Shown here: in pieces, positions 1-4,025 of the stretch | How the letters are laid out: each line of letters starts with the position of its first letter | Numbering within the stretch: the first letter of the stretch is position 1 | NCBI GenBank assembly: GCA_017461005.1 | Contig: JAFTZU010000004.1 | Location: 1 to 32,985 of the forward strand | Length of the DNA: 32,985 nt | Source: Clostridia bacterium | GTDB lineage: Bacteria; Bacillota; Clostridia; Oscillospirales; Acutalibacteraceae | Reading direction: 5' to 3' | Made by a program: the position numbers and the translations under genes | Notes under the pieces: model-generated | Databases searched by the model: none | Seen by the model: the letters and a program-made list of their open reading frames with translations, nothing else | What the model was told of the DNA's origin: nothing

Positions 1-236
1 CCAAAACACGTACCAGAAATCGCTTCATCTGACCCTCTGTTAGTGACCAAGGTACGTGTTTCTCTCTATTTTTGGAGAAACACGTACCAACCGAGCGTTT
101 TATCCTTTGCAATCACGACTGAGAGGTACGTGTTTCTTTGATTTTTCCATCAAACACGTACCTCGCGTCGTCTTGGCGGTTGTCTGAACTCGAATGTTGG
201 TACGTGTTTTTGCGATTATTTGCCGAAACACGTGCC
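1..236. repeat. Regular array of palindromic hairpins, exact 74-bp period
   Basis: Three complete hairpins (51-88, 125-162, 199-236) and the right arm of a fourth (4-14) are visible. Each has arms GGTACGTGTTT and AAACACGTACC around a 16-nt T-rich, variable centre. The last copy has one change (CACGTGCC) that keeps a G-T pair. Hairpins are all 38 bp, and the three spacers (15-50, 89-124, 163-198) are all exactly 36 bp and unrelated, giving a 74-bp period. In the first copy pairing extends to 14 bp. The array runs off the left edge. No gene was found in it. Function is unknown. It has CRISPR-like regularity, but the repeat core is not conserved, so a CRISPR call is not supported. Confidence 0.93.
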
Positions 237-240
237 TTTG

Positions 241-346
241 CCTGCTCATGGGCAGGATAAAAGCTCAGCTGGGGCGAGGAGGCGCCGCAGGTTCTGTACC
301 AAGGGGCATGTGCCCCGACTCCATGAACCTCCGACGAAGCCCCAGC
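241..346. ncRNA. Compact structured element, possible small RNA
   Basis: Between the hairpin array and the mfd stop lies a sequence that folds well on either strand. An outer 8-bp helix GCTGGGGC/GCCCCAGC (268-275 with 339-346) encloses a 6-bp helix AGGTTC/GAACCT (289-294 with 325-330) and an apical hairpin GGGGCA/TGCCCC (303-308 with 311-316), separated by two internal loops. A small hairpin CCTGC/GCAGG (241-245 with 252-256) lies beside it. There is no coding potential worth calling. The long rod with internal loops is faintly 6S-like when read on the minus strand, but at about 80 nt it is too short for a normal 6S RNA. It could also be the 3' region of the mfd transcript. Confidence 0.25.
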
Positions 347-374
347 GTCGATCACATCGATAGATTTCAGTTTG

Positions 375-3300
375 TCAGTGGGTGGAGCGCTCGGCTTCCC
401 GCTTGCTGGCTGCCATGAGGAGGAGGCAGGTCTTGAGGTCTTTGATGGTGTCGGCGGAGTCCTGCTCGGCGACCATGGAGGTGTGCTCGACCTTGAAGGT
501 GACGTAGGGCTTGGCACCGCCGCTGACCATGAGCCGGCCGCGGAACTCCTGCGAGGCGCGGGCGACGGCTTTCATGTCGATATCGTCCCACCAGAGGAGC
601 AGCGAATCGCCGCGCTGGGTGATCTCGTAGATGCCGAGGAGCGCTGCCGTGTTGCGGAGCAGGGCGACCTCGATGAGGCCTTCGACCGCGACGGGCGGGT
701 CGCCGAAGCGGTCGATGAGTTCGTCCGTGACGTCCATCGCATCCTCGCTCGTGCGGATGTCGGCGATGCGCCGATACATGGCGAGACGGTGCGGGATACT
801 CTGGATGTAGTCCTCCGGGATGTGCGCGTCGACCTGGATGTCGACGAGGCATTCGCGTTTGGGCGTATAGGTTGCTTTCCGGGAAGCTTCACCTGCCGAA
901 GCGCCATTGGCGTCAGAAGTATCGGAGCCGCCGGTACTCAGTAAAGAACTGCCGTCTGAGGAGCCGCCGTCCGCGCCGTTCAGGGCCTTCTGTTCTTCGA
1001 TGGCCTCCGCGAGGATCTTGAGGTACATGTCGTAGCCGACGGCTTCCATGTGGCCGTGCTGCTGCGCGCCCAGGATGGAGCCGGCGCCGCGGAGCTCGAG
1101 GTCGCGCATGGCGATCTTGAAGCCGGAGCCGAACTCGGTGTACTCGCGGATGGCGGAGAGCCGCCGCTGGGCGATGTCCGTCAGTTCCTTGCCGCCGTAG
1201 AACGTGAAGTAGGCGGAAGCGCGGCGGGAGGAGCGGCCGATGCGGCCGCGGATCTGGTGCAGCTGCGAGAGGCCGAACCGGTCGGCGTTCTCGATGATCA
1301 GCGTGTTGACGTTCGGGATGTCGACGCCCGTCTCGATGATCGTCGTGCAGACGAGGATGTCGATCTCGCCCTCCATGAGGTCCCGCCAGACAGCGGACAG
1401 CTGTTCTTCCGACATCTTGCCGTGGGCGATGCCGATGCGCGCCTCGGGCACGAGTTCGTGCACCTTCGCGGCGCAGTGGGTGATGCCCTCGACGTTGTTG
1501 TAAAGGTAATAGACCTGGCCGCCGCGGCGCAGTTCCTTCTCGATGGCCTGGGCGATGATGCCCGGGTCGTACTCGAGGACGAAGGTCTGGACCGGGTGGC
1601 GATCCATCGGCGCCTCTTCGATGATCGACATGTCGCGGATGCCGCTCATCGCCATATTCAATGTTCTCGGGATGGGCGTCGCCGACAGGGTCAGGACGTC
1701 CACGTTCGGGAACTTCTGCTTGAGTTTTTCTTTCTGCGCGACGCCGAACCGCTGTTCCTCATCGACGATGAGGAGGCCGAGGTCGCGGAACTCCACGTCC
1801 TTCGAGATGAGACGGTGCGTGCCGACGAGTACGTCGATGTTGCCCCGGCGGACCCGGTCGAGGATCTTCTTCTGCTGGGTGGGCGTGCGGAAGCGGGAGA
1901 GCATCTCGACTTCCACCGGGAAGCCCTCGAACCGCTGCATGATCGTGTTGTAGTGCTGGAACGCGAGGATGGTCGTCGGCACGAGGATGGCACACTGCTT
2001 TCCGTCCGCGATGCACTTGAAGGCGGCGCGGAGCGCGACTTCGGTCTTGCCGAACCCTACATCGCCACAGAGGAGGCGGTCCATCGGGTAGGCCCGCTCC
2101 ATGTCCGACTTGATCTCGTGGATGCAGCGGAGCTGGTCATCGGTCTCATCGTACTCGAACCGGCGTTCGAAGTCCGACTGCATGTCGATGTCCGGCGAGA
2201 ACGCGTAGCCCGGCGCCTTCAGGCGGGTCGCGTAGAGCTCGGTGAGTTCCTTCGCCATATCCTTGACGGCCGCCCGGACTTTGCTGCGGGACTTCTCCCA
2301 CTCCTTCGAGCCGAGGCGATTCACCTTGACTCTGCTCGTGTCATCCTTCGGGCCGATGTATTTGGAGACAAGGTCCAGCTGCGTGACGGGGACGTACAGG
2401 GCGTCGCCCTTCGCGTAGCGGATCTTCAGATAGTCTTTCGTGACTCCCGTGACGGTCATCTTCTCGATGCCCTCGAAGATGCCGATGCCGTGGAGGGAGT
2501 GGACGACATAGTCGCCCTTATGGAGTTCGTCGAGGCTGTGGAAGGCGTTCGCGGCGTTGCGGTTGCGGATGTGTTTCCGCCGGTTCGTCGCGGCCTTGTT
2601 GCCCTGGGAGATGATGAGGAACTTCGACTCCCGGAACATGACCCCGGCGCTGAAGTTGCCGGGCAGGACGGAGATAGCGCCCTTCGGGAACTCGTTCGGG
2701 ATGACCGAGAAATAGAACGCCTTGTACCCTGCCTCCTCGAGGTCGTCCGCCAGCTGCCTCGCGGCCTTCTCCGTGCCCGCCGTGACGACGGTCGTGTACT
2801 CCCGGATGCCGCTCGGGAAGCAGTCCTGCTCGAGGGACGAGAAGGTGCCGTTCCACTGGGGCGTCTGGCCGAGGGTGAGGCTGTAGAGTTCCTTCACCGG
2901 CAGGTCGAAACTGCCCCGGGCGAAGTTGTCCATGTAGACGAGGTCCGCGTGCTCGTAGTCCGAGACGAGGTCCTGGTAGGAGATCATGAGGTCGCCGAGG
3001 GCCTTGACGTACTCGCCGGTCGCGAGGGCCGCTTTCAGGTCCTCCCGGTACAGCTTCACGGCGCCGTTCACCCGCTCCTTGACCGTACCGCTCTCCGCGG
3101 CGATGAGCAGGTCGCCCTCCCGCAGGTACCCGAGAGGCGTGCAGGCGTTCTCATAGTAGAGGTTGATGTACTTGTCCGGGCACAGGTCCCGTCCGGTGAC
3201 GATGGCGTCGGCGTCCTCCTGGAGTTTCGCCTTCGCCTGGTCCGCGTTCTTCGAACGCACCTTTTTGGCGATCTGCCGGATCTGTTCCGCAACGGCTTCC

Positions 3301-4025
3301 GCAGAGTCCTCTTCCCCGTCGCCGGCGATGATCTCCGCCGAAGGCGTCAGGAGCACTTCGTCCACGAGGTCCGTGCGGCGCTGGGACTCGACTTCGAACT
3401 CCGCGATGGTGTCGATGGTGTCGCCCCAGAGCTCCATGCGCAGGGGCAGCTCCCGCTCCGGCGGGAAGAAGTCCACGATGCCGCCGCGGACCGAGAACTG
3501 GCCGTGGCCTTCGACCTCGTCCGCCCGCTTGTAGCCGGCGGCCACGAACCTGCGTTTGAGGTCGTCGAGGGAGATGTCCTCCCCGACTTTGAGGTCGATC
3601 ATGCGGTCGGCGAGCACAGTCGGCGGGACGGTCTTCTGGACGGCGGCTTCGGCGGAGACCAGCAGCACGTCCACCGTGCCGAGGACCCAGGCGGACAGCG
3701 CGCCCATGCGCTGCTGTTCGTACTCCCGGGAACGGACCTGGTCCGTCAGGAACGTGAGGTCCTTGGCCGGGAGCACCGCCGCCTTCGTGTCCATGGCGGC
3801 GAAGTCCTCCATCATGCGGGTGGCGGTGCCTTCGTCCGGGACCAGCACCATGGCGCGCCGGCGTCCGCCGTCCTCGTTCAGGGACGAGAGCAGCGAATGG
3901 AGCAGGAAGACTTTGTGCATCCCGGTCGTGCCGAGGACGCCGAAGGGGAACCGGCCCGCCCGGATGGCAGACAGGATCTCTTTGTAAGTCTCATGTTGTG
4001 CGATGCTTTTGGAAAAGCCGGACAT
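375..4025 (-). CDS. mfd: Transcription-repair coupling factor Mfd
   Basis: This 1216-residue protein is full length for Mfd, the ATP-driven translocase that removes RNA polymerase stalled at DNA damage and recruits UvrA. In order it shows a UvrB-like N-terminal region and a CarD-like polymerase-interaction domain (KGDYVVHSLHGIGIFEG, about residues 500-560). The helicase core follows, with Walker A GDVGFGKTE (about 657), DEEQRFGV (about 753), the TLSATPIPRTL motif and GRIGRSSR. A C-terminal TRCF domain begins near 1045. A Ser/Gly-rich linker of about 35 residues before the last domain is probably flexible. The start ATG has a well-placed GAGGTG site. It is the last gene of a minus-strand run RING protein, glmU-like, pth, mfd, 94 bp after pth. 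Confidence 0.97.
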   Translation of the reverse strand: MSGFSKSIAQHETYKEILSAIRAGRFPFGVLGTTGMHKVFLLHSLLSSLNEDGGRRRAMVLVPDEGTATRMMEDFAAMDTKAAVLPAKDLTFLTDQVRSREYEQQRMGALSAWVLGTVDVLLVSAEAAVQKTVPPTVLADRMIDLKVGEDISLDDLKRRFVAAGYKRADEVEGHGQFSVRGGIVDFFPPERELPLRMELWGDTIDTIAEFEVESQRRTDLVDEVLLTPSAEIIAGDGEEDSAEAVAEQIRQIAKKVRSKNADQAKAKLQEDADAIVTGRDLCPDKYINLYYENACTPLGYLREGDLLIAAESGTVKERVNGAVKLYREDLKAALATGEYVKALGDLMISYQDLVSDYEHADLVYMDNFARGSFDLPVKELYSLTLGQTPQWNGTFSSLEQDCFPSGIREYTTVVTAGTEKAARQLADDLEEAGYKAFYFSVIPNEFPKGAISVLPGNFSAGVMFRESKFLIISQGNKAATNRRKHIRNRNAANAFHSLDELHKGDYVVHSLHGIGIFEGIEKMTVTGVTKDYLKIRYAKGDALYVPVTQLDLVSKYIGPKDDTSRVKVNRLGSKEWEKSRSKVRAAVKDMAKELTELYATRLKAPGYAFSPDIDMQSDFERRFEYDETDDQLRCIHEIKSDMERAYPMDRLLCGDVGFGKTEVALRAAFKCIADGKQCAILVPTTILAFQHYNTIMQRFEGFPVEVEMLSRFRTPTQQKKILDRVRRGNIDVLVGTHRLISKDVEFRDLGLLIVDEEQRFGVAQKEKLKQKFPNVDVLTLSATPIPRTLNMAMSGIRDMSIIEEAPMDRHPVQTFVLEYDPGIIAQAIEKELRRGGQVYYLYNNVEGITHCAAKVHELVPEARIGIAHGKMSEEQLSAVWRDLMEGEIDILVCTTIIETGVDIPNVNTLIIENADRFGLSQLHQIRGRIGRSSRRASAYFTFYGGKELTDIAQRRLSAIREYTEFGSGFKIAMRDLELRGAGSILGAQQHGHMEAVGYDMYLKILAEAIEEQKALNGADGGSSDGSSLLSTGGSDTSDANGASAGEASRKATYTPKRECLVDIQVDAHIPEDYIQSIPHRLAMYRRIADIRTSEDAMDVTDELIDRFGDPPVAVEGLIEVALLRNTAALLGIYEITQRGDSLLLWWDDIDMKAVARASQEFRGRLMVSGGAKPYVTFKVEHTSMVAEQDSADTIKDLKTCLLLMAASKREAERSTH

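Follow-up and report, generated by a model that had tools for sequence, protein, structure and literature searches.

The palindrome array lies at the start of the window, by which we mean the whole 32 985 nt stretch that was analysed, and is followed by a GC-rich module (module A) and by mfd, the gene for the transcription-repair coupling factor (Table 1). It forms the middle of a modular, non-coding mosaic element that is dispersed in one bacterial genus and that, in the window, runs on the minus strand in the same direction as mfd. The source genome (G000) is a 2.1 Mb draft of 200 contigs and the window opens at base 1 of contig C172, so the array is truncated on its left; what is present is three full palindromes and one arm, with a period of 74 bp and with mutually unrelated spacers. 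This geometry had been described in an earlier note made from the letters alone, and it was borne out, a pattern scan allowing up to three mismatches giving three matches in the window and none in 100 shuffles. The slight decay reported for the last copy proved to be a single change in the right arm (AAACACGTGCC), and the array does continue past the left edge, where the palindrome owning the first half-site is cut at contig base 1. The earlier note had counted four units, which holds for three full palindromes, the fourth being present as its right arm alone.

Table 1. Features of the array, the element and the adjoining host gene in the window
Feature	Position	Strand	Remarks
Right half-site of a cut palindrome	4–14	.	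At contig end
36 bp spacer	15–50	.	Also carried by C59, with two point differences
Palindromic dyad, GGTACGTGTTT-16-AAACACGTACC	51–88	.	Two 11 bp arms flanking a 16 nt centre
36 bp spacer	89–124	.	Absent from the stretches of C59, C113 and C27 that were read
Palindromic dyad	125–162	.	Two 11 bp arms flanking a 16 nt centre
36 bp spacer	163–198	.	Also carried by C59, C113 and C27
Palindromic dyad, one change in right arm	199–236	.	Two 11 bp arms flanking a 16 nt centre
Module A, GC-rich	255–374	-	Whole or partial copies at nine places in G000; weak evidence that the minus strand folds slightly better as RNA
Element left terminus, CAAACTGAAATC on the minus strand	363–374	-	Directly after the mfd stop codon
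mfd, transcription-repair coupling factor	375–4025	-	Host gene adjoining the element; G002 has an element in this slot too

The full window palindrome occurs 12 times in the genome when up to three mismatches are allowed (on C172, C59, C27, C113, C141 and C197), and when the centre is freed to 8–30 nt, 12 exact inner palindromes are found, all of them with a 16 nt centre. The spacers had been called unique, which is true within the window, but two of the three recur on other contigs of G000; the copies on C59 differ from the window by point changes, and exactly one 74 bp unit, that with spacer 89–124, is missing there. Several contigs of G000 terminate inside such arrays. Only two of the 18 exact matches to the half-site GTACGTGTTT fall outside arrays, one of them apparently within a coding sequence, and the scan, which covered this word, therefore gave no sign of an ordinary operator set. 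On C27 (L029:5900–6008) part of the GGTACGTGTTT array is inverted relative to the C172 and C59 copies, which, if the contig is not chimeric, looks like the outcome of an inversion between palindromes. One and the same insertion-sequence-like end, with an open-frame tail, was seen in two different arrays (L028:1–120, on C59, and L031:1–140, on C141), and comparison with C197 indicates that in C141 it apparently sits inside a palindrome.

Arrays of the same plan, built from other palindromic words, are carried by copies of the element in G000, G001, G002, G004 and G007. We delimited 23 word sets by hand, 14 of them in G000; as some sets from different genomes share a word or have related ones, the distinct words number about 20. 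The sets comprise 203 unit calls, with some units entered under two related words; an earlier automatic dyad finder took some wrong registers, and the counts rest on a fixed-geometry finder. The words are 8–11 bp long, and the units of an array retain both the word and the half-site gap but come to have unrelated loops and spacers. Once a few spurious finder pairings are set aside, the gap varies by no more than about 1 bp among the units of a word set, even where the centres are unrelated; for the word CCATACAAA it is 17 in G000 and 18–19 in G001.

The dyad centres are separated by roughly whole numbers of helical turns, for example 63, 74 or 84 bp. The 149 adjacent centre distances in 45 arrays reduce to 60 non-redundant ones, still partly dependent because arrays share ancestry and related word sets overlap in part, and 53 of these depart by no more than 1.5 bp from a multiple of 10.5 bp, where 17.1 would be expected, the best-fitting single period being 10.8 rather than 10.5. 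The same test without the 72–76 class gave 20 of 26 (7.4 expected), and the set-level phases cluster (R 0.87, 23 sets). A different palindrome array, ATCTTCT-3 nt-AGAAGAT with 14 nt spacers, was seen in two blocks on contig C8 of G000 (L199, approximately 1565–1650 and 1895–2070); counted by eye, its period is approximately 31 bp, or nearly three turns of the helix.

The words are also the part of the array that changes least. Between unit pairs of the same set with unrelated spacers, differences amount to 1106/9882 (11 %) in the words, a figure biased downward because units were located through the word itself, 6354/10 665 (60 %) in the centres and 10 837/15 232 (71 %) in the spacers; in homologous unit pairs the corresponding values are 115/2394 (4.8 %, with the same bias), 379/2647 (14.3 %) and 464/3612 (12.8 %). 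Alignment was feasible for one orthologous array, on C159 of G000 and C38 of G002, which is 77 % identical over 2755 bp including its flanks. Here the aligned differences are 5/96 (5 %) in the words, 50/128 (39 %) in the centres and 88/240 (37 %) in the spacers (P 2e-11), and the gap columns number 2, 33 and 42, respectively. For the same two genomes, 82 of 423 fourfold sites differ in the C-terminal part of mfd, and divergence in the left flank of the array locus is 272/1268. The words of this array thus diverge less than mfd synonymous sites, while most of the intervening sequence has changed. In the young arrays on C53 and C67 of G002 the units, of 73 and 64 bp, are near-identical, which suggests that arrays are born by tandem duplication. 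Copies of an array's own word elsewhere in the same element, which would be guide-like, were found in 16 of 54 tests as against 133 of 1050 for other words; this excess may come from decayed units that were not masked, and we make no claim for it.

When many copies are read in the same orientation, the order is left terminus, left module, palindrome array, right module, right terminus. The left module is module A reversed, a variant of it, or a module C, and the right module is either C reversed or module B, which is longer than A and lies on the far side of other element copies, at ten places in G000 by one query and 12 by a longer one. Some copies have the array on the opposite side of A, and the copy on C178 has none. 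The eight elements for which a script found both ends are 454–1585 bp long, the ends, CAAACTGAAAT and (reversed) CAACTCCGAATTTGTC, are alike only in part, and no target-site duplication was seen by eye at the printed element flanks. By nucleotide search, module B is present in six of eight genomes of the genus (G000, G001, G002, G004, G005 and G007, but not G003 or G006) and in none of 52 others. A covariance-model survey, with stricter filters, of 300 genomes from 135 genera of the family found it in three, each a member of this genus; four genomes of the genus are among those listed in the sample, which leaves 277 genomes with no match unlisted. Bare palindrome matches in Gleimia and Actinomycetaceae come from three stretches (L013, L014 and L015) with single GGTACGTGTTT hairpins beside genes, their centres being 21, 16 and 15 nt and several GGTACGTGCTT words lying nearby in one of them; by eye the printed stretches hold no 74 bp array and no module A or B, and these hairpins are probably a separate repeat.

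Comparison of species reveals that arrays are replaced at fixed places. Thirteen positions, recognized by flank matches between genomes and with words assigned by our own reading, have readable arrays in at least two species, and 12 of them show either different words or the absence of an array in one species. At mfd, G000 carries GGTACGTGTTT and G002 carries TCACGCTAA. The other switched positions are C104/G002:C71, C168/G002:C125, C184/G001:C69, C4/G002:C92, C53/G002:C47a, G002:C47b/G007:C102, G001:C141/G004:C9, G001:C73/G007:C74, G002:C53/G007:C61, the triple switch G002:C67/G004:C8/G007:C108 with three different words, and C178, which is without an array at the place of the six units on G002:C116. 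For seven of the 12 (mfd, C168, C184, C4, C53, G001:C141 and G001:C73) only one flank was matched. The word is retained only at C159/G002:C38. Positions at which one array lies beyond a contig end or was unread were left out of the count (e.g. C76/G004:C9, C58/G002:C109, G004:C40/G007:C82, G004:C41/G007:C74 and G001:C73/G002:C90). The elements on G000:C6 and G007:C102 are approximately 97 % alike in content, and they have no flanks in common in the fetched DNA. Downstream of mfd there is no such element in the fetched DNA of G003, G006 and G004, nor in the approximately 150 bp that remain before the contig end in G001. At the post-mfd position of G004 and G001 (L148 and L149) another shared intergenic module, CCCGAAGCCCACAGCCCTTTGGTTCGCG ... 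TTGGAAACGCCGG, was seen. As to the recombination-site array suggested in the earlier note, array content is clearly exchanged, but no recombinase was linked to it.

Our current working hypothesis, to which we give about an even chance, is that a BOX-like mosaic element carries the arrays, and that these offer dimeric DNA-binding proteins a series of helically phased sites. A binding array was among the possibilities raised by the earlier note, and as a class it is supported by the word conservation, the fixed half-site gap and the helical spacing. We hypothesize that each palindrome is a putative site for a dimeric, sequence-specific protein, and that the dimers would stack along one face of the helix into a single nucleoprotein complex, much as ParB is held by sopC of the F plasmid. 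A protein family that has diversified may provide the readers, with a different member for each word. A new array would arise by tandem duplication of one unit, after which the sites would be maintained as the spacers decay, and arrays may shift as a whole between fixed positions via recombination in the shared terminal modules. Candidate roles of such a complex are DNA organization, transposition or recombination, and local regulation.

The strongest rival is a neutral one. Quasi-palindromes are corrected by template switching, and switching between neighbouring inverted copies could keep the arms of a mosaic repeat complementary and alike with no binding protein and no function. Each arm has inverted copies on both sides, here 16 and 36 bp away, so that such repair could homogenize a whole array, and the difference between C178 and G002:C116 indicates that arrays are dispensable. 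Neutral maintenance thus accounts for the identity of the arms, but it predicts neither the helical spacing nor the nearly constant half-site gap, and we regard it as unlikely.

Somewhat less probable still is a long structured RNA running from the left to the right module, in which the hairpins of the array would act as RNA. Module B has features expected of such a molecule: in 29 copies and 40 pairs, 15 pairs have both members changed (mean of 500 shuffles 9.1, none of them reaching 15; 1 to 8 in slid controls), the covariation score is 0.286 as against 0.122 for shuffled alignments (none of 500 as high), and the forward strand of the element has 103 G-U and 6 A-C cells, a count favoured by the folding program, which permits G-U. 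The evidence for module A is weak and mixed. Its 12 copies give 38 G-U and no A-C cells in the forward direction of the element, with no pair having two Watson–Crick types, and 8 G-U and 10 A-C cells in the opposite direction, with three such pairs. With flanking modules that look RNA-like, the whole element may act as RNA. The arms of the array, however, lack a G-U bias. The fixed-geometry count of unique arm mismatches is 40 G-T and 46 A-C (53 and 67 for all mismatches), superseding counts from the earlier finder of 48 A-C and 20 G-T, and with no G-T excess the conservation is unlike that of an RNA hairpin and looks like that of a DNA site array. The small hairpin RNAs proposed in the earlier note thus find no support as far as the array is concerned, and the spacing follows turns of the DNA helix. 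No sigma-70-like promoter was found in positions 1–1200 of the window, which says little, and no Rfam family reached the gathering score in the window and five element loci. Our own reading of these sequence patterns is that the element combines an RNA-like end module, B, with a DNA-like middle.

It is also conceivable, but improbable, that the arrays are decoys, each word mimicking the site of a phage or plasmid replication or partition protein and titrating that protein. This would fit the many words per genome, their rapid turnover at fixed positions and the near-identical content of G000:C6 and G007:C102, which occupy different positions in their respective species. Against it, the words have nearly the same geometry, and the searches of mobile DNA were unproductive. 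The comparison with phage and plasmid sequences proposed in the earlier note gave no match for the window array, and none was found for module A in plasmids or module B in phages. In viral contigs, the exact module-B string was without a match, as were three of four dyad patterns, and the fourth gave a single match inside coding DNA that looks like chance; a viral or plasmid origin was accordingly rejected. The CRISPR-like memory array considered in the earlier note, which regular spacing and unrelated spacers within one array had recommended, has next to no probability left and was rejected, since only the 11 bp arms are constant while the palindrome centres differ, spacers recur between loci with point changes and are near-identical in young arrays, as after tandem duplication, and the array matches no phage or plasmid sequence. 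The window-side neighbour is mfd and the array side lies off the contig; no defence gene was matched in ten open frames near five element copies, a search that says little because several of the frames are probably antisense.

Known systems each share a part of this organization. The BOX element of Streptococcus pneumoniae consists of boxA, repeated boxB and boxC, boxB being one module family, and has a predicted RNA structure, with other module sets in Streptococcus suis (PMC3049150). Like BOX, the element described here is modular and intergenic, a pair of terminal modules encloses tandem internal units that vary in number, there are many copies, and it is BOX-like as judged by organization; unlike in BOX, all that the middle units retain is a palindromic word, which varies between copies, at helical spacing and with unrelated spacers. 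The F-plasmid centromere sopC is a tandem series of 12 43 bp units, and in every unit a dimer binds an inverted repeat (PMC9178275). It resembles our arrays in its tandem units each holding an inverted repeat, but it has one word and one cognate ParB, whereas here there are many words per genome at chromosomal intergenic positions and no known link to a ParB. REPINs, in which two inverted words surround a highly diverse short centre, are duplicated by RAYT (PMC8049555). The inverted arms around diverse centres are alike, but the arrays lie between dedicated modules, and a Y1 transposase is present in only one of the eight genomes of the genus (G007); as it is absent from G000, a REPIN–RAYT system was rejected. 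The neisserial intergenic mosaic elements also combine short inverted repeats with variable longer repeats, but have the single dRS3 pattern ATTCCC(N8)GGGAAT (PMC3898611), whereas here there are helically spaced dyads and a word that varies from array to array. In the open library, and with the terms used, the searches turned up no account of an element of this kind.

The usual picture of an interspersed repeat in bacteria is of a single sequence present in many copies. In the present element the geometry stays the same but the recognized word differs between copies, and the cassettes are swapped at fixed chromosomal addresses. What counts against the hypothesis of phased binding sites is that about a dozen or more words in a single genome would need as many proteins or a programmable reader, that the half-site GTACGTGTTT is so seldom found outside arrays, and that the best-fitting period is 10.8 and not 10.5. 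We suggest tentatively, and with more doubt than attaches to the binding sites themselves, that the approximately 20 private DNA words of this genus, set out as helically phased dyad arrays in exchangeable cassettes at fixed slots and replaced between species, may constitute an undescribed multi-code addressing system, read by a large, diversified family of DNA-binding proteins or by one programmable reader. If a reader exists, there would be many specificities within one genome.
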